In this document: piece after piece, positions 6,504 to 31,331 of the stretch
How positions within the stretch are numbered: the first letter of the stretch is position 1
How the letters are laid out: each line of letters begins with the position of its first letter
Assembly: GCA_018822105.1 (NCBI GenBank)
Contig: JAHJLB010000051.1
Span: 124,001-188,000 of the forward strand
DNA length: 64,000 nt
Reading direction: 5' to 3'
From: Pseudomonadota bacterium
Lineage (GTDB): Bacteria > Desulfobacterota > Desulfovibrionia > Desulfovibrionales > Desulfovibrionaceae
Made by a program: the position numbers and the translations under genes
The notes under the pieces: model-generated
The model's input: only the letters and a program-made list of their open reading frames with translations
Told to the model about the DNA's origin: nothing
Database searches by the model: none

Positions 6504-6532
6504 TTGACAAGGCCTCAGCGCCGGGAGTAAAC
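6504..6532 (+). promoter_or_regulatory. Sigma-70-like promoter of the first riboswitch/KimA unit
   Basis: TTGACA at 6504-6509, a 17-base spacer, then GTAAAC at 6527-6532. The same TTGACA-17-xTAAAC layout recurs upstream of the other two riboswitches, which supports it as the real start site just ahead of the aptamer. Confidence 0.7.
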
Positions 6533-6534
6533 GC

Positions 6535-6669
6535 GTACTTGCCGAGTTCCGGGAGCGTCTCCCGGGAGCGGGGGACCCACATCCCTTGGGGCGCATCGCC
6601 GATAACGGCGTAGGACACTCTTCGGTCCGAGCCCGTCAGCTAACCTCGCAGGCGTCGAAGGGGAAGACC
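6535..6669 (+). promoter_or_regulatory. ydaO/yuaA-type c-di-AMP riboswitch (copy 1)
   Basis: The leader holds the conserved ydaO blocks in order: GCCGAGTTCCGGG, GAGCGGGGGACCCA, TTGGGGCGCATCGCC, GGTCCGAGCCCGTCAGC and TAACCTCGCAGGCGTCGAA. The ydaO class binds cyclic di-AMP and usually represses potassium uptake or cell-wall genes. The transporter that follows is of the KimA family, a classic target. Identification is by recall of consensus blocks, not a covariance search. Confidence 0.9.
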
Positions 6670-6713
6670 TCCGGTACAACGGGGCCATCCCCCGTATCCA
6701 CTCGTACCGGAGG
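6668..6713 (+). promoter_or_regulatory. RBS-sequestering hairpin downstream of riboswitch 1
   Basis: CCTCCGGTAC (6668-6677) is perfectly complementary to GTACCGGAGG (6704-6713), with a smaller ACGGGG/CCCCGT stem inside the loop. The 3' arm contains the GGAGG ribosome-binding site of the ATG at 6721. It is a plausible expression platform acting on translation; the trailing TATTTT could also allow some termination. Confidence 0.65.
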
Positions 6714-6720
6714 TATTTTC

Positions 6721-6825
6721 ATGCCCGCCGTTCATCTGGCCGTATTCCGGCCCCTGGCCTTGTTGCGTCCGAGTTCCGGCCGCGCCACCGCAGTCGCGTC
6801 GCGCCCCGCGCCCTTGCAGCGCTAG
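6721..6825 (+). CDS. 34-residue leader peptide between riboswitch and kimA-like gene
   Basis: MPAVHLAVFRPLALLRP... has an ATG 7 bases after the sequestered GGAGG and stops 9 bases before the transporter ATG, overlapping its ribosome-binding region. Its first residues resemble the N-termini of the two Kup proteins downstream (MSTASLAALRPL and MSAFCLAALGPF), which start at the same place relative to their riboswitches. It could be a translated leader coupling riboswitch state to kimA translation, or a relic of the Kup N-terminus carried along when the leader was copied. No conserved domain is visible. Confidence 0.45.
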   Translation: MPAVHLAVFRPLALLRPSSGRATAVASRPAPLQR

Positions 6826-6834
6826 GAGGCCGCC

Positions 6835-8835
6835 ATGCGCCCCGCCCCGAATTTTGGCCGCAAGGTCAAAAACCTGTTCCTCGGCAAGTCCCTGAACCTG
6901 GGCGACACGTCCATCTTCCACAACCTCTCCCTGGTGGCCTTCTTCGCCTGGGTGGGCCTGGGCTCCGACGGGCTGTCCTCGTCCTGCTACGGCCCGGCCG
7001 AGGCCTACCTGGCCCTGGGCGAGCACACCTTCCTGGCGCTCTTCGTGGGCCTGGCCTCGGTCTTGACCATCTTCGTCATCAGCGCCAGCTACTCGCAGAT
7101 CATCGAGCTCTTTCCTTCCGGCGGCGGCGGCTACGTGGTGGCCAGCAAGCTCTTGAACCCCACCCTGGGCATGATCTCCGGCTGCGCGCTCATGGTGGAC
7201 TACGTGCTGACCATCACCCTCTCCGTGGCCAGCGGCGCGGACGCCCTGTTCAGCTTCCTGCCCCCGGCCTGGGTGCCCTACAGGCTCGCCACGGCGGTTT
7301 TCGGCGTCCTGCTGCTCGTCGTGCTCAACCTGCGCGGGGTCAAGGAGTCCGTCACGGCCCTGGTGCCCATCTTCATGGTCTTCGTCATCACCCACGCTTT
7401 CGCCATCCTCTACGGCCTGGGCACCCACCTGGGCAACCTGCCCGCGGTGGTCGAACGCACCAGCGCGGACATCGGCGTGGCCCAAAGCCAGCTCGGGCTC
7501 ATGGGCATGTTCCTCTTGATCCTGCGCGCCTACAGCATGGGCGCGGGCACCTACACCGGCCTGGAGGCCGTGAGCAACGGGCTGGCCATCTTGCGCGAGC
7601 CCAAGGTGCAGACCGGCAAGCGCACCATGACCTACATGGCCGTGTCGCTTTCGGTGACGGTCATGGGCCTGATCCTGACCTACATCCTTTTCGACGTGGC
7701 CCAGATAAAGGGCAAGACCCTGAACGCGGTGCTCTTTGAGGCCATCGCCCAGGGCTGGGGCGTGCCGGGCCAGGTGTTCGTGCTGGTGACCCTGGTGTCC
7801 GAGGCGGCCATCCTCTTCGTGGCCGCGCAGACAGGCTTCCTCGACGGCCCTCGCGTCCTGGCCAACATGGCCATGGACCGCTGGTTCCCCGCGCGCTTCG
7901 CCATGCTCTCCGACCGCCTGGTGACCCAGAAGGGCATCCTGCTCATGGGCGGGGCCGCGCTGGCGCTCATGGTCCTGACCCACGGCTCGGTGGAGCTGCT
8001 GATCGTGCTTTACTCCATCAACGTGTTCATCACCTTCGTGCTCTCGCAGCTGGGCATGGTGCGCCACTGGCTCCAGGCCGACAAGAACGAGCCGCACAGG
8101 AAGAAGGGCCTGGCCCTGAACGGGCTGGGGCTGCTCTTGTGCAGCTTCATCCTCGTCACCGTCACGGCCATCAAGTTCTTTGAGGGCGGCTGGGCCACCC
8201 TCGTGGTCACCGGCGCGGTGTCCGCCCTGGCCCTGACCATCCGCCGCCACTACGACGCCACCTGGATCATGCTGAAGAAGCTCGACGCCCTCATCCCCGT
8301 GGCCGAGGCCGACACGCGCTTTTTATCCGGCGAGGGGCACGCCGAAGGCCCGGGCATGGCCGAGGCCGCCTGCGACCCCAAGGCCAAGACCGCGGTCATC
8401 CTGGTCAACGGCTACAACGGCCTGGGCATGCACACCCTGCTCTCCATCCACCGCCTGTTCGCCGGGGAGTTCAAAAACTTCATCTTCGTGCAGGTGGGCA
8501 TGGTGGACGCCGGCGTGTTCAAGGGCGCGGAGGAGCTGGAGGCGCTCAAGACGCACATCCGCTCCGACCTGGACCGCTACGTGCGCTTCATCCGCAACCG
8601 GGGCCTTTACGCCGAGGGCATAAGCTCCGTGGGCGTGGACGTGGTGGAGGAGGTGGTCAAGCTGGCCCCTTCGATCCGCCTCCGCTTCCCCAGGGCCATC
8701 TTCTTCGGCGGGCAGCTGGTCTTCCAGAGCGACACCTTCTTCACCCGCATGCTGCACAACTACATCGTCTTCGCCGTGCAGCGGCAGCTGTACCGGGAGG
8801 GCGTGGCCTTCGTCATCATGCCCATCCGGGTCTGA
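6835..8835 (+). CDS. kimA: KimA-like APC-family potassium/proton symporter
   Basis: A 666-residue protein with start after AGGAGG. It opens with a short basic cytoplasmic segment, then about 12 membrane helices; GLGSDGLSSSCYGPAE and PSGGGGYVVASKLLNP match APC/KimA helix 1 and the following loop. The C-terminal ~200 residues (from about 470) are soluble and end in a USP-like domain (VILVNGYNGLGMHTLLSIHRLF), as in KimA. KimA takes up potassium and is inhibited by c-di-AMP, both at the protein and through its riboswitch. The symbol is assigned by family resemblance and riboswitch context; a related amino-acid permease is the main alternative. Confidence 0.8.
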   Translation: MRPAPNFGRKVKNLFLGKSLNLGDTSIFHNLSLVAFFAWVGLGSDGLSSSCYGPAEAYLALGEHTFLALFVGLASVLTIFVISASYSQIIELFPSGGGGYVVASKLLNPTLGMISGCALMVDYVLTITLSVASGADALFSFLPPAWVPYRLATAVFGVLLLVVLNLRGVKESVTALVPIFMVFVITHAFAILYGLGTHLGNLPAVVERTSADIGVAQSQLGLMGMFLLILRAYSMGAGTYTGLEAVSNGLAILREPKVQTGKRTMTYMAVSLSVTVMGLILTYILFDVAQIKGKTLNAVLFEAIAQGWGVPGQVFVLVTLVSEAAILFVAAQTGFLDGPRVLANMAMDRWFPARFAMLSDRLVTQKGILLMGGAALALMVLTHGSVELLIVLYSINVFITFVLSQLGMVRHWLQADKNEPHRKKGLALNGLGLLLCSFILVTVTAIKFFEGGWATLVVTGAVSALALTIRRHYDATWIMLKKLDALIPVAEADTRFLSGEGHAEGPGMAEAACDPKAKTAVILVNGYNGLGMHTLLSIHRLFAGEFKNFIFVQVGMVDAGVFKGAEELEALKTHIRSDLDRYVRFIRNRGLYAEGISSVGVDVVEEVVKLAPSIRLRFPRAIFFGGQLVFQSDTFFTRMLHNYIVFAVQRQLYREGVAFVIMPIRV

Positions 8836-8905
8836 CCTCCTGAAGGCACGCCGCGCCCCCTCCTCCGCAGGCTGGGCGCAGCCCCGGCGCCCCCGCAGCG
8901 CGATC

Positions 8906-8934
8906 TTGACAGGGCCTTGGCGCCGGGAGTAAAC
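8906..8934 (+). promoter_or_regulatory. Sigma-70-like promoter of the second riboswitch/kup unit
   Basis: TTGACA at 8906-8911, 17 bases, GTAAAC at 8929-8934: the same hexamers and spacing as upstream of riboswitch 1. It lies 70 bases after the KimA-like stop codon, so the kup gene has its own promoter. Confidence 0.7.
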
Positions 8935-8937
8935 GGG

Positions 8938-9071
8938 GGTCTTGCCGAATTCCGGGAGCGTCTCCCGGGAGCGGGGGACCCAATCCCTTGGGGCGCATCG
9001 CCGATAACGGCGTAGGACACTCTTCGGTCCGAGCCCGTCAGCTAACCTCGCAGGCGTCGAAGGGGAAGACC
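8938..9071 (+). promoter_or_regulatory. ydaO/yuaA-type c-di-AMP riboswitch (copy 2)
   Basis: Nearly base-for-base identical to copy 1 from GCCGAATTCCGGG through CGCAGGCGTCGAAGGGGAAGACC. GGTCTT (8938-8943) pairs perfectly with AAGACC (9066-9071), giving the closing P1 helix. All conserved ydaO blocks are present. It precedes a Kup potassium transporter, a known riboswitch target. In the known class, ligand binding lowers expression. Confidence 0.9.
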
Positions 9072-9116
9072 TCCGGTACACGGGGCCATCCCCGGCATCC
9101 ACTTGTACCGAAGGAG
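9071..9116 (+). promoter_or_regulatory. RBS-sequestering hairpin downstream of riboswitch 2
   Basis: CTCCGGTACA (9071-9080) can pair with TGTACC (9104-9109) and, after a three-base bulge, GGAG (9113-9116), the ribosome-binding site of kup. The first base is shared with the 3' side of the P1 helix, a possible link between ligand binding and translation start. Confidence 0.55.
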
Positions 9117-9120
9117 CAGC

Positions 9121-11184
9121 ATGTCCACCGCCTCCCTGGCCGCACTTCGGCCGCTCCGCAGCCTGGCCGCCCGCATCGCCCCCTGGGCGGCCACGGCCGC
9201 CACGGACAAGGCCACGCCACAGGCCGGCCCCCCCGGCTCCGGCGAGGGCCCGGCCTCCGGCAAATCCCCGGATGCGGCCCCGCCCGCTGGCGGCCACGGC
9301 GGCCACGGCGACCGCACTTCGGCCCGGAACGCGGCCCTGGCCCTGGCGGCCCTGGGCGTGGTCTACGGCGACATCGGCACCAGCCCGCTCTACGCCGTGC
9401 GCGAATGCTTCCACGGCCTGCACGCCATCGCGCTTCTGCCCGGCAACATCATGGGCGTGCTCTCGCTCATCGTCTGGTCGCTCATCGTCGTGGTCAGCCT
9501 CAAATATGTCATGTTCATCATGCGCGCCGACAACAAGGGCGAGGGCGGCATCTTCGCGCTGCTGGCCCTGGCCAAGTCCTCGCTGGACAGCAAGGGCGGC
9601 AGGGGCCGCACCCTGCTCATCACCCTTGCCATCTTCGGCGCGGCCCTGCTCTATGGCGACGGCATCATCACCCCGGCCATCTCCGTGCTCTCCGCCATGG
9701 AGGGCCTGGACGTGGCCACGGACGCCGCGGCCCCCTTCATCCTGCCCGGCACCTGCCTCATCCTCATCGTGCTCTTCCGCTTCCAGAAGCACGGCACGGA
9801 GCGCATCGGCAAGGTCTTCGGGCCGCTCATGGTCGTCTGGTTCACGGTCATCGCCGTGCTGGGCGTGCGGGCCATCCTGGACCGCCCGGACATCCTGGCC
9901 TCGGTGAACCCGGTCCACGCCTACCGCTTCTTCCTGGAAAACCATCTGCACGGCCTGGTGGTGCTGGGCTCGGTGGTGCTCTGCATCACCGGCGGCGAGG
10001 CCCTCTACGCCGACATGGGCCACTTCGGCGCCAGGCCCATCCGCCTGTCCTGGTACGCCATGGTGCTGCCCTCCCTGCTGCTCAACTACTTCGGCCAGGG
10101 CGCGCTGCTGCTCAGCCATCCGGAGAAGGCCTTCAACCCCTTCTACGCCATGGTGCCCCACGTCATGCTCTACCCCATGGTGGCCCTGGCCACCATGGCC
10201 ACGGTCATCGCCTCCCAGGCCATGATCTCCGGCGTCTTTTCCCTGACGCAGCAGGCCATGCAGCTGGGCTACTGCCCGCGCATCCACATCGTGAACACCT
10301 CCGCCGAGACCAAGGGCCAGATCTACCTGCCGGGCGTGAACAACGCCATGATGGTGGCCTGCCTGGGATTGGTGCTGGCCTTCAAGAGCTCCAGCAGCCT
10401 GGCCGGGGCATACGGCATCGCCGTGACGGCCACCATGGGCATCACCTCGGTGATCTATTTTTACGTGGTGCACACCCTGTGGCGCTGGTCCTACTGGAAG
10501 ACCATCCCCCTCATCACCCTGTTCCTGGTCTTCGACGTGACCTACCTCTCCGCGAACCTGCTGAAGATCCTGGACGGCGGCTGGTTCACCCTCACCGTGG
10601 CCGGGCTCATCATGCTGGCCATCGTCACCTGGCGCGACGGCAAGCAGGCCCTGGGCGAAAAGTTCGCGGCCATGGGCCTGCCCATCAACCTGTTCCTGGA
10701 GAGCCTCGTGGCCACGGAGCGCCCCATCCGCGCGCCCGGCACGGCGGTGTTCATGTCCATGTCCCCCACGGGCACGCCCATCACGCTGCTGCACCACTAC
10801 AAGCACATCAAGGTGCTGCACGAGCAGATCATCCTGCTTTCCGTCATCTCCTCCGAGACGCCCTTCGTGCCCCGCTCCGCCCGCCTGGAGGTGACCAGCC
10901 TGGGCCACGGGTTCTTCCGCATCCTCGCCCGCTACGGGTTCATGCAGACCCCGAGCGTGCCGGATATCCTCCGCCTGGCCAAGACGCACGGACTGGACAT
11001 CCGGCTGGAGAGCACCACCTTCTATCTGGGCCGCGAGACCCTGCTCACCAGCGGCCAGGCGAAAATGGCCGGCTGGCGCAAGGCCCTGTTCGCCTACATG
11101 TCGCGCAACGCCTGGAACGCCACGACCTTCTTCGGCATCCCGCCGGGACGCGTGGTGGAGCTGGGCACCCAGGTGGAGCTTTAG
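9121..11184 (+). CDS. kup: Kup-family potassium uptake protein (copy 1)
   Basis: A 687-residue protein. ATG follows AAGGAG; a TTG 18 bases upstream is less likely. Residues 1-72 are a Pro/Ala/Gly/His-rich extension not usual for Kup. The family core starts at LALAALGVVYGDIGTSPLYAV, with MRADNKGEGGIFALLAL and GALLYGDGIITPAISVLSAMEG as Kup signatures. About 12 membrane helices are followed by a soluble C-terminal domain from about residue 520. Kup imports potassium with protons. It is a close paralogue of the gene at 11486 and has its own riboswitch. Confidence 0.93.
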   Translation: MSTASLAALRPLRSLAARIAPWAATAATDKATPQAGPPGSGEGPASGKSPDAAPPAGGHGGHGDRTSARNAALALAALGVVYGDIGTSPLYAVRECFHGLHAIALLPGNIMGVLSLIVWSLIVVVSLKYVMFIMRADNKGEGGIFALLALAKSSLDSKGGRGRTLLITLAIFGAALLYGDGIITPAISVLSAMEGLDVATDAAAPFILPGTCLILIVLFRFQKHGTERIGKVFGPLMVVWFTVIAVLGVRAILDRPDILASVNPVHAYRFFLENHLHGLVVLGSVVLCITGGEALYADMGHFGARPIRLSWYAMVLPSLLLNYFGQGALLLSHPEKAFNPFYAMVPHVMLYPMVALATMATVIASQAMISGVFSLTQQAMQLGYCPRIHIVNTSAETKGQIYLPGVNNAMMVACLGLVLAFKSSSSLAGAYGIAVTATMGITSVIYFYVVHTLWRWSYWKTIPLITLFLVFDVTYLSANLLKILDGGWFTLTVAGLIMLAIVTWRDGKQALGEKFAAMGLPINLFLESLVATERPIRAPGTAVFMSMSPTGTPITLLHHYKHIKVLHEQIILLSVISSETPFVPRSARLEVTSLGHGFFRILARYGFMQTPSVPDILRLAKTHGLDIRLESTTFYLGRETLLTSGQAKMAGWRKALFAYMSRNAWNATTFFGIPPGRVVELGTQVEL

Positions 11185-11188
11185 GCAG

Positions 11189-11238
11189 CCCCCCGCTCCT
11201 TCGCTCCCGCGCGGGCTTTGCCCCGCGGGCCGGACGCG
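11189..11238 (+). repeat. Duplicated 3' flank of kup copy 1
   Basis: About 50 bases after the stop (CCGCTCCTTCGCTCCCGCGC followed by a GC-rich hairpin around CCGCGCGGG/CCCGCGG) recur almost unchanged at 13551-13600 after the second kup. The shared flank shows that the whole kup unit was duplicated in tandem. The hairpin lacks a T-tract and is a weak terminator candidate. Confidence 0.7.
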
Positions 11239-11277
11239 CGGCAAAGCCCGGCCCGGCAATCGGCATGGGCGTCCGAG

Positions 11278-11306
11278 TTGACAGCCGCGCACCCCCGGCT
11301 TAAACA
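11278..11306 (+). promoter_or_regulatory. Sigma-70-like promoter of the third riboswitch/kup unit
   Basis: TTGACA at 11278-11283, 17 bases, TAAACA at 11301-11306, the same arrangement as at the first two units. It gives the second kup gene its own transcription start. Confidence 0.7.
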
Positions 11307-11308
11307 GA

Positions 11309-11442
11309 CGCTGCCGAATCCAAAGGATCACTCCTTGGAGCGGGGAAACCATTTCCTTGGGATGCAACCCGACTTAAGCTGCGCAGGACATCCTTCCGTC
11401 CTCGCCCATCAATGCACCTCGCAGGCTTCAAAAAGGGAACCA
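11309..11442 (+). promoter_or_regulatory. Divergent ydaO-type riboswitch (copy 3)
   Basis: The block order of the ydaO aptamer is kept: GCCGAATCC, a CCAAAGGA/TCCTTGG hairpin, GAGCGGGGAAACCA, TTGGGATGCA, GGAC, GCCC and ACCTCGCAGGC. The highly conserved GTCAGCTAACC of copies 1 and 2 reads ATCAATGCACC here. It may bind c-di-AMP more weakly, bind something related, or be decaying. Its position between promoter and kup start fits a regulatory leader. The downstream GCGGGG/CCCCGC hairpin differs from the platforms of copies 1 and 2. Confidence 0.65.
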
Positions 11443-11485
11443 CACACAGCGGGGCCCCCCGCCGCATGCGTCCTGGAGGTCTTTC

Positions 11486-13543
11486 ATGTCCGCCTTTTGC
11501 CTTGCCGCCCTTGGGCCGTTCTTCTCCCGGATGTTTCCGCGCGGCCCCTGGGCCTCCTGCTCTGCGGCCGGGGAGGCCCCGGCTGGCCCGCCGCAGGCAA
11601 GCCCCACACCAAGCCCGGACGCCCAGGGCCGCGCCCCGGATGCCGAGCCGTCACCGGACGGCCACGGCTCCCACGCCACCACCCGGACCATGGCCATGGC
11701 CCTGGCTGCCCTGGGCGTGGTCTACGGCGACATCGGCACCAGCCCGCTCTACGCCGTGAAGGAATGCTTCCACGGCCCGCACGCCATCCCGCTGCTTTCG
11801 GTCAACATCATGGGCGTGCTCTCGCTCATCGTCTGGTCCCTGACCATCGTCGTCAGCATCAAGTACGTCATGTTCGTCCTGCGCGCCGACAACAAGGGCG
11901 AGGGCGGCGTCTTCGCCCTCCTCGCCCTGCTGCACAGCGAGGTGGAGAACAAGAGCAAGGCGAAATACGCCCTGGTGATCTTCCTGGCCATCTTCGGCGC
12001 GGCGCTGCTCTACGGCGACGGCATCATCACCCCGGCCATCTCCGTGCTCTCCGCCATGGAGGGCTTGAGCGTGGCCACGGACGCCGCGACCCCCTTCATC
12101 ATCCCCGGCACATGCCTGGTGCTCGTCGCGCTGTTCATGATGCAGAAGCACGGCACGGACAAGATCGGCAAGGTCTTCGGGCCGGTGATGATCCTCTGGT
12201 TCTCCACCCTGGCCGTGCTGGGGCTGGTCGCCATCTTCAAGAATCCTGAGATACTGAAGGCCGTGAACCCCTACTACGCCGTCCGCTTCTTCGCAGAAAA
12301 CCACTTCCACGGCATGGTGGTGCTGGGCTCGGTGGTGCTCTGCATCACCGGCGGCGAGGCCCTCTATGCCGACATGGGCCATTTCGGGCGCGTTCCCATC
12401 CGCCTGTCCTGGTACGGCCTGGTGCTGCCCGCGCTGCTTTTGAACTATTTCGGGCAGGGCGCCCTGCTGCTGTCCGAGCCGGAGAAGTCCTTCAACCCCT
12501 TTTACGGGCTTGTGCCGGAATTCCTGCTCTACCCCATGGTCGGGCTGGCCACCATCGCCACGGTCATCGCCTCCCAGGCCATGATCTCCGGCGTCTTTTC
12601 CCTGACGCAGCAGGCCGTGCAGATGGGCTTCTGCCCGCGCATCCGCATCGTCAACACCTCCGCCGAGACCAAGGGCCAGATCTATCTGCCGGGCGTGAAC
12701 AACGCCATGATGGTGGCCTGCATCGGGCTTGTGCTGGCCTTCAAGAGCTCCAGCGGCCTTGCCGCAGCCTACGGCATCGCCGTGACCATCGACATGACCA
12801 TCACCTCCATCTTCTTCTTCTTCGTCATGTCCATGCTGTGGCGCTGGCCCGCCTGGAAGACCGTGCCCCTGGTCTCGCTGTTCCTGCTTTTCGACCTGTC
12901 GTTCCTTGGCTCCAACCTGCTCAAGATTCCTGATGGCGGCTGGTTCACCCTCACTGTGGCGGCGCTCATCATGACCACCATGATCACCTGGCGCGACGGC
13001 AAGCAGGCTCTGGGCCGCCAGTTTGCGGCCATGGGCCTGCCCATCAACCTGTTTCTGGAAAGCCTCGTGGCCTCGGACCGCCCGCTGCGCATCCCCGGCT
13101 CGGCGGTGTTCATGTCGGTGTCCACCACGGGCACGCCCATCACGCTCCTGCACCATTACAAGCACAACAAGGTGCTGCACGAGCAGGTCATGCTCTTGTC
13201 CATCACCTCCTCCGAGACCCCCTTCGTGCCCCGCGGCTCCCGGCTTGAGGTGACCAGCCTGGGCCACGGGTTCTTCCGCGTCATCGCCCGCTACGGGTTC
13301 ATGCAGACCCCGAGCGTGCCGGAGATCCTCCGCCTAGCCAAGGGCCACGGGCTGGACATCCGGCTGGAGAGCACCACCTTCTATCTGGGCCGCGAGACCC
13401 TGCTCACCGGCGGGGTGGCGCGCATGGCCGGCTGGCGCAAATCCCTGTTCGCCTTCATGTCGCGCAACGCCTGGAACGCCACGACATTCTTCGGCATTCC
13501 GCCGGGGCGCGTGGTGGAGCTGGGCACCCAGGTGGAGCTTTAG
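11486..13543 (+). CDS. kup: Kup-family potassium uptake protein (copy 2)
   Basis: A 685-residue protein whose start follows GGAGG. The sequence is very close to the Kup at 9121 through the core and C-terminus (GVVYGDIGTSPLYAV, LRADNKGEGGVFALLAL, YGDGIITPAISVLSAMEG, AETKGQIYLPGVNNAMM), while the 60-70 residue N-terminal extension has diverged. About 12 membrane helices plus a soluble C-terminal domain. Retention of two near-identical Kup proteins with separate, now different riboswitches suggests different c-di-AMP set points. Role: proton-coupled potassium import. Confidence 0.93.
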   Translation: MSAFCLAALGPFFSRMFPRGPWASCSAAGEAPAGPPQASPTPSPDAQGRAPDAEPSPDGHGSHATTRTMAMALAALGVVYGDIGTSPLYAVKECFHGPHAIPLLSVNIMGVLSLIVWSLTIVVSIKYVMFVLRADNKGEGGVFALLALLHSEVENKSKAKYALVIFLAIFGAALLYGDGIITPAISVLSAMEGLSVATDAATPFIIPGTCLVLVALFMMQKHGTDKIGKVFGPVMILWFSTLAVLGLVAIFKNPEILKAVNPYYAVRFFAENHFHGMVVLGSVVLCITGGEALYADMGHFGRVPIRLSWYGLVLPALLLNYFGQGALLLSEPEKSFNPFYGLVPEFLLYPMVGLATIATVIASQAMISGVFSLTQQAVQMGFCPRIRIVNTSAETKGQIYLPGVNNAMMVACIGLVLAFKSSSGLAAAYGIAVTIDMTITSIFFFFVMSMLWRWPAWKTVPLVSLFLLFDLSFLGSNLLKIPDGGWFTLTVAALIMTTMITWRDGKQALGRQFAAMGLPINLFLESLVASDRPLRIPGSAVFMSVSTTGTPITLLHHYKHNKVLHEQVMLLSITSSETPFVPRGSRLEVTSLGHGFFRVIARYGFMQTPSVPEILRLAKGHGLDIRLESTTFYLGRETLLTGGVARMAGWRKSLFAFMSRNAWNATTFFGIPPGRVVELGTQVEL

Positions 13544-13550
13544 GCAGAGT

Positions 13551-13600
13551 CCCCCCGCTCCTTCGCTCCCGCGCGGGCTTTACCCCGCGGCCCGGACGCG
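13551..13600 (+). repeat. Duplicated 3' flank of kup copy 2
   Basis: Matches 11189-11238 after the first kup, with a few substitutions in the hairpin loop. It marks the right edge of the tandem duplication. Confidence 0.7.
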
Positions 13601-30918: not shown

Positions 30919-30959
30919 GCCGGACCAACGGCCTTGCGCATAGGGAAAAGTGGGATAAA

Positions 30960-31136
30960 CCCTGGGGAGTTCGTGATTGCTCTTGAGTTTTTGAGCCAAT
31001 AAGCATCAAAAGGGATCTGCCAGAGCGCGCCCGTGTGCATGCCCGTCTTCGTGCGGGGAGCCTGACGGCCAGCCGGTGGAGCCCACCTCGATAAACGAGG
31101 TTCATAACTCCAAGAACGACACGGCGCCCCGGGGCT
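30960..31136 (+). ncRNA. ssrS: 6S RNA
   Basis: The 413-base gap between zapA and rny has no ORF and contains a long closing stem: CCCTGGGG (30960-30967) pairs with CCCCGGGG (31127-31134), and CGTG (30972-30975) pairs with CACG (31120-31123), enclosing about 180 bases with internal hairpins such as CCTCG-ATAAA-CGAGG near 31086. Position right after zapA is the hallmark site of ssrS in proteobacteria. 6S RNA mimics an open promoter and sequesters the housekeeping RNA polymerase. Ends are approximate. The rest of the gap (31137-31331) shows no further feature. Confidence 0.75.
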
Positions 31137-31331
31137 TAACAGTCCACGGAGCTCTTTCCTGCACCACGCGGCATGAAAGGGCATTCCCCCTCGCATAAAC
31201 GCCCACTGCCCTCCATCAGCTCCCTACCAAGCAGCATGACCCGCGCGGGGATGAGCCCCTCTGGGGCGCTTTCCGCCGCGCACGTATCAGGCCCGTCAAG
31301 GCCTGTCCATATAACCGGAAGGGAGCAGCGC

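Follow-up and report, generated by a model that had tools for sequence, protein, structure and literature searches.

A three-unit potassium uptake locus with c-di-AMP-type riboswitches in a Humidesulfovibrio-like genome, with a leader ORF preceding kimA and a degenerate third switch

In Bacillus, ydaO/c-di-AMP riboswitches control kimA, ktrAB and kdpFABC (PMC10284832, PMC6488665). Tandem c-di-AMP riboswitches have been described as doublets located in one leader before one gene (PMC9481103). A different type of control is known from Mycobacterium tuberculosis, where a B12 riboswitch gates a short leader, the uORF, and ppe2 is translated by termination-reinitiation (PMC11260477).

The locus described here was found in a window of 64,000 nucleotides, the whole stretch of DNA that was analysed. 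It resembles the Bacillus systems in the aptamer family, in the potassium uptake targets and in the CdaA-cdaR-glmM operon, and differs from them in its three adjacent units, its expression platforms that mask Shine-Dalgarno (SD) sequences, the leader ORF of kimA, one degenerate copy and the Gram-negative host (PMC10284832, PMC6488665). With the tandem riboswitches it shares the presence of several aptamers close together, but each aptamer of the window has its own promoter and its own gene (PMC9481103). The likeness to the ppe2 system lies in a riboswitch-gated short leader with downstream translation via termination-reinitiation, the latter proposed for kimA. Ligand, organism and target are different, the leader ORF of the window appears to stem from the beginning of a gene next to it, and its coupling to kimA is a prediction (PMC11260477).

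The array and its distribution

The host genome of 3.17 Mb is Humidesulfovibrio-like and belongs to the Desulfovibrionaceae; those relatives at the array that bear a name come from Humidesulfovibrio and other members of this family. The array occupies positions 6504-13543 of the window (Table 1). An earlier note, written from the letters of the sequence, had claimed three potassium transporters in a Gram-negative, Desulfovibrio-like host, each with its own promoter and ydaO-type leader, and this layout is confirmed: phmmer identified the KimA-like protein, both Kup proteins exceeded the TIGR00794 cut-off, and the promoters were found in front of all three genes. A scan of the window (cmscan, Rfam 15) yielded three RF00379 matches above the gathering score of 38 bits, of which copies 1 and 2 (88.5 and 91.5 bits) surpassed it by far and copy 3 reached 54.5 bits. 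Beyond these three, no RF00379 match was found in the 3.17-Mb genome.

Table 1. Features of the array in the window
Feature	Position	Strand	Evidence and properties
Promoter 1	6504..6532	+	TTGACA 6504-6509, 17 nt, GTAAAC 6527-6532
c-di-AMP aptamer 1, intact	6530..6669	+	RF00379 88.5 bits, E 2.4e-19; 0/52 near-invariant columns changed
Expression platform 1	6667..6714	+	11-bp hairpin ACCTCCGGTAC/GTACCGGAGGT over SD GGAGG 6709-6713, then ATTTTC
Leader ORF, 34 codons	6721..6825	+	SD in riboswitch hairpin; stop TAG overlaps kimA SD
kimA-like K+/H+ symporter gene, 666 aa	6835..8835	+	phmmer to B. subtilis KimA 6s3k, E 2.5e-56
Promoter 2	8906..8934	+	TTGACA 8906-8911, 17 nt, GTAAAC 8929-8934
c-di-AMP aptamer 2, intact	8933..9071	+	RF00379 91.5 bits, E 3.4e-20; 0/52 near-invariant columns changed
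Expression platform 2	9070..9114	+	Hairpin CCTCCGGTAC/GTACCGAAGG, one mismatch, immediately 5' of kupA start
kupA, 687 aa	9121..11184	+	TIGR00794 547.6 bits (cut-off 539.6); PF02705, PF22776
Promoter 3	11278..11306	+	TTGACA 11278-11283, 17 nt, TAAACA (equally TTAAAC at 16 nt)
c-di-AMP aptamer 3, degenerate	11302..11442	+	RF00379 54.5 bits, E 7e-10; 12/52 near-invariant columns changed
kupB, 685 aa, intact	11486..13543	+	TIGR00794 560.2 bits (cut-off 539.6); PF02705, PF22776

TTGACA is present at the equivalent place in 24 of the 25 leaders of the genus that were examined. With the -10 hexamer at this place, just upstream of the aptamer, the transcript is expected to start practically at the 5' strand of P1. 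The near-invariant columns were defined from 52 aptamers of the phylum, in an alignment whose mis-oriented row L141 slightly lowers the column counts, and there are 52 of them. At these positions copies 1 and 2 are identical, which gives no sequence reason to expect differing sensors. A putative pseudoknot between the loop and the 3' tail (CUCUUCG/CGAAGGG) can be read by eye in both, and both aptamers are predicted to bind c-di-AMP.

RF00379 occurs in all 15 genomes of the genus, with one to three matches each, and in 40 of the 297 genomes of the order; in both sets three matches were found only in the genome of the window. Among 395 genomes of the phylum one other had three, two in tandem and one on another contig (G377). 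Three copies side by side are thus confined to the window's genome among the 15 genus genomes and approximately 690 genomes of the order and phylum that were compared, some of them incomplete. The slot occupied by the array is constant across the genus: it follows tatA and motAB, which lie on the other strand, and precedes the same downstream genes. Its contents vary, being usually kimA and kup, in other genomes kup and kup or kup alone, and here kimA, kup and kup. The earlier note had called the triple array unusual. This holds with respect to its rarity (one of 15 genus genomes) but not in the sense of an isolated oddity, since two-unit arrays are the norm of the genus and the array is a lineage-specific elaboration of them. 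The array is real and its parts are of known kinds; new is its combination with a leader ORF that is probably coupled to kimA and with a decaying third switch.

Two further kinds of arrangement were noticed during the comparison. The c-di-AMP aptamers G135:C27:18548-18785 and G136:C5:14231-14468 are about 238 nt long owing to an insertion of some 100 nt, and the one in G135 precedes a kup gene. In other families of the phylum, RF00379 pairs lie approximately 2.4-2.6 kb apart (G377:C29:77100-79784 and G584:C45:5596-8076) and are possibly independent arrays.

Masking hairpins and the leader ORF of kimA

In the intact leaders, a hairpin located 3' of the aptamer pairs the SD with ACCTCC. The hairpin of platform 1 folds at -28.7 kcal/mol, that of platform 2 at -21.7 kcal/mol. 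In 20 leaders the masking helix is conserved, with 87.3% of the cells paired versus 30-42% in slid versions, and five of its pairs have changes on both sides. Some kimA and kup leaders contain 4-7 U after the hairpin, which would suggest that there the hairpin would also suit a terminator. The direction of the switches, OFF in the presence of the ligand, is taken from the behaviour of the family (PMC10284832) and would apply here by analogy. In equilibrium folding of the leaders the hairpin was closed in nearly all of them, no convincing ON-state (anti-masking) structure emerged, and the kimA hairpin was closed with or without the aptamer; switching would therefore have to be kinetic. A 5' helix of copy 2, GGGGGUCUU with AAGACCUCC, was considered as an anti-masking element and rejected, as it is located 5' of the place where transcription is expected to begin and, by inspection, is not conserved in other leaders.

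What is masked in the kup units is the start of kup; in the kimA units, the start of a short ORF takes its place. This leader ORF, like the degeneracy of copy 3, goes beyond what the earlier note had reported. Each of the ten riboswitch-kimA loci of the genus has such an ORF; it comprises 29-37 codons and always starts in the riboswitch platform and stops at the downstream start. The stop is situated 9-14 nt before the ATG of kimA or, in G298, overlaps it as ATGA (+4). The leader ORF starts 92-126 nt before kimA, and each of the three relative frames is represented among the ten loci; since the frame varies between genomes, the idea that the ORF extends KimA at its N-terminus was rejected. The kimA leaders of three genomes from two other genera of the family contained no ORF ending at the kimA start. 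In a first null model, the joint probability of the stop positions was 10^-10.5. In a stricter one, in which the SD, itself containing TAG or TAA, is kept and the frame is random, it was about 1e-5 if the genomes are independent; with shared ancestry and some six independent lineages, we estimate the joint chance at perhaps 1e-3.

In nine of the ten genomes, the first 11 codons of the leader ORF resemble Kup starts more than shuffled sequences do; in G269, the tenth, the comparison began at a wrong ATG. Most simply explained, a kup leader was copied before kimA together with its first codons, and the truncated ORF would now hand ribosomes over to kimA. The best reading of these data is that the captured kup leader would gate kimA through translational coupling. 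The SD of kimA is mostly paired in the untranslated leader, with an unpaired fraction of 0.02-0.29. Two observations count against coupling: the location of the stop inside the SD (TAGGAGG) is partly automatic, and kimA has an SD of its own, from which translation without the leader ORF might occur. In the literature searched, which included few subscription papers, no case of a c-di-AMP riboswitch coupled to a leader ORF was found.

The leader ORF could also be a useless remnant, with the riboswitch terminating kimA transcription at the hairpin and U-run and the SD of kimA itself serving translation. In several kimA leaders the hairpin is followed by 4-6 U, ATTTTC in the window and TTTTTT in G298, and the ydaO riboswitch of B. 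subtilis acts on kimA and ktrAB at the level of transcription (PMC10284832). However, the U-run of the window is short and was not called by the terminator scan, the kupA hairpin has no U-run, and in ten of ten genomes the stop has been held at the kimA start despite many changes in length and frame. We regard termination with a functionless ORF as unlikely, though it has to be taken seriously, and prefer coupling of the leader ORF to kimA translation.

The third unit

Both kup genes are intact, and KupA and KupB are 75% identical. The changed near-invariant positions of aptamer 3 include the GUCAGCUAACC stretch, and the kupB SD, GGAGG, lies just upstream of the gene without a CCTCC masking arm, CCACACA having replaced CCTCCGG. 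In a phylogeny of the leaders, which are too short to resolve it, aptamer 3 has a terminal branch of 1.89 compared with a median of 0.091. Judged by its sequence, copy 3 is a degenerate relative of RF00379 and is not classed as a working member. With its core and masking arm damaged, the third switch probably leaves kupB expression almost independent of c-di-AMP. Since aptamer 3 exceeds the Rfam threshold and by eye retains P1, P3, P5 and a weak pseudoknot of about five pairs (UCCUU/AAGGG), it may still be partly functional.

KupB falls into one group with kup genes from another locus (100/99 support), and three of these relatives have readable leaders, all without an aptamer. A second kup leader with 16 of 52 near-invariant columns changed is found in G297; by eye it keeps P1, P3 and a pseudoknot. 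It shares with copy 3 five identical changes at near-invariant positions (columns 47 G->A, 120 G->C, 126 A->C, 139 A->C and 154 G->A), which suggest common ancestry of the damaged leader. In G193 an intact aptamer has been kept before the second kup. The pattern suggests that second kup genes have lost their control by c-di-AMP more than once.

These findings bear on the interpretation given in the earlier note, according to which three working switches differing in affinity or strength would provide graded control of potassium uptake by c-di-AMP. Consistent with gradation, all three aptamers lie above the gathering score, the strength of the hairpins declines from platform 1 to platform 2 with no masking helix in copy 3, and the aptamer score of copy 3 is weaker. 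Against it, copies 1 and 2 share one core, copy 3 has lost near-invariant positions including GUCAGCUAACC as well as the masking arm, and no aptamer precedes those kupB relatives whose leader is readable. Graded control by three working switches is therefore quite improbable, and KupB is probably weakly controlled or constitutive rather than the third step of a gradient.

It is very improbable that aptamer 3, beyond mere decay, belongs to an altered lineage that recognises a different ligand or binds with far lower affinity. The changes shared with G297 might be read in this way, but the cores of the two differ from each other. A conserved variant class was sought with a covariance model that included copy 3 and copy 2 of G297 and was rejected, as the model revealed no further convincing variants in the 297 genomes of the order and no match before the far kup genes; this speaks against a new ligand class.

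A second conserved kup locus comprises the nearest kin of the window's kupB (L069:10001-11968, L070:10001-12025 and L071:7961-9817). These genes are aptamer-less and have a promoter, TTGACA-17-GTAAGG, with a layout like that of the array.

Potassium import, c-di-AMP and the proposed regulation

No Kup other than KupA and KupB was found in the genome, nor were TrkH/KtrB and KdpA, for which the same searches gave matches in control genomes. The three genes of the array hence constitute the whole detected potassium import, although a further family of importers may have been missed. A search of the genome for a diadenylate cyclase identified CdaA (TIGR00159, 223.8 bits, cut-off 188.8) in the gene order folP-cdaA-cdaR-glmM; by homology it is predicted to make c-di-AMP. 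A PgpH-type phosphodiesterase domain was not found in the genome, which encodes five DHH proteins, one of them (L155) NrnA-type-like by eye.

c-di-AMP also inhibits KimA and Kup proteins (PMC10284832). All four potassium ligands are kept in the KimA-like protein of the window, D36, Y43, T230 and Y377 aligning with D45, Y52, T241 and Y393 of KimA 6s3k. In B. subtilis KimA, Arg337 contacts c-di-AMP and supports the inhibition without being essential for it (PMC10284832); in the protein of the window this position is Ala353, with Arg354 adjoining. This difference makes control of the KimA-like protein by c-di-AMP at the protein level uncertain.

The aptamers, the hairpins, the leader ORF and its position, the decay of copy 3, the cyclase and the absence of TrkH and KdpA were computed; the mechanistic steps that go beyond the sequence we infer as follows. 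A potassium uptake locus found throughout the genus would have expanded in this genome to three independently transcribed units under c-di-AMP, the product of CdaA as judged by homology. When c-di-AMP is high, aptamers 1 and 2, both intact, would fold and the pseudoknot would take the GAAGGGG strand, leaving the ACCTCC stretch free to pair with the SD and turn translation off; where a U-run follows the hairpin, transcription would perhaps be shut off too. In kupA the masked site would be the gene's own start. In kimA it would be the start of the 34-codon leader ORF, presumably descended from the kup leader cassette with its first codons, and ribosomes that finish the leader ORF would translate kimA, either by termination-reinitiation or because the kimA site has been opened. 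The third unit would be decaying, and KupB would probably serve as a baseline importer nearly independent of c-di-AMP. To this account as a whole, a genus-wide potassium locus with three c-di-AMP-controlled units of which kimA is regulated via its leader ORF and kupB escapes, we assign a probability of about 0.62. If the coupling is true, a c-di-AMP riboswitch governs a transporter by way of a leader ORF acquired from an adjacent gene, and the locus is a natural example of a regulatory cassette that has moved to a new gene. The locus would also be a compact model from a Gram-negative host, where all potassium uptake detected is subject to a single second messenger and one copy seems to evade it.

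In the leader ORF, the synonymous fraction (40 of 121) equals the neutral expectation of 0.33, which indicates that the position of the stop has been kept and not the leader peptide. A functional small protein or stalling peptide is very improbable, for although the start MPAVxLAVxRPL is conserved, the synonymous/nonsynonymous ratio is neutral even in the best conserved part, and the C-terminal parts and lengths are unrelated.

The genome contains a second, weak DAC-domain protein (L005:499-1932, + strand, a frame of 477 aa) with DACND and DACNH sensor domains, the motif DGA...RGARY instead of the usual RHR, and a weak partial match to the NCBIfam anti-phage protein DS2_3. A hybrid histidine-kinase-like ORF adjoins its gene on the opposite strand. 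Elsewhere in the window, a 6S RNA is encoded at positions 30956-31139 on the + strand (RF00013, 98.6 bits).
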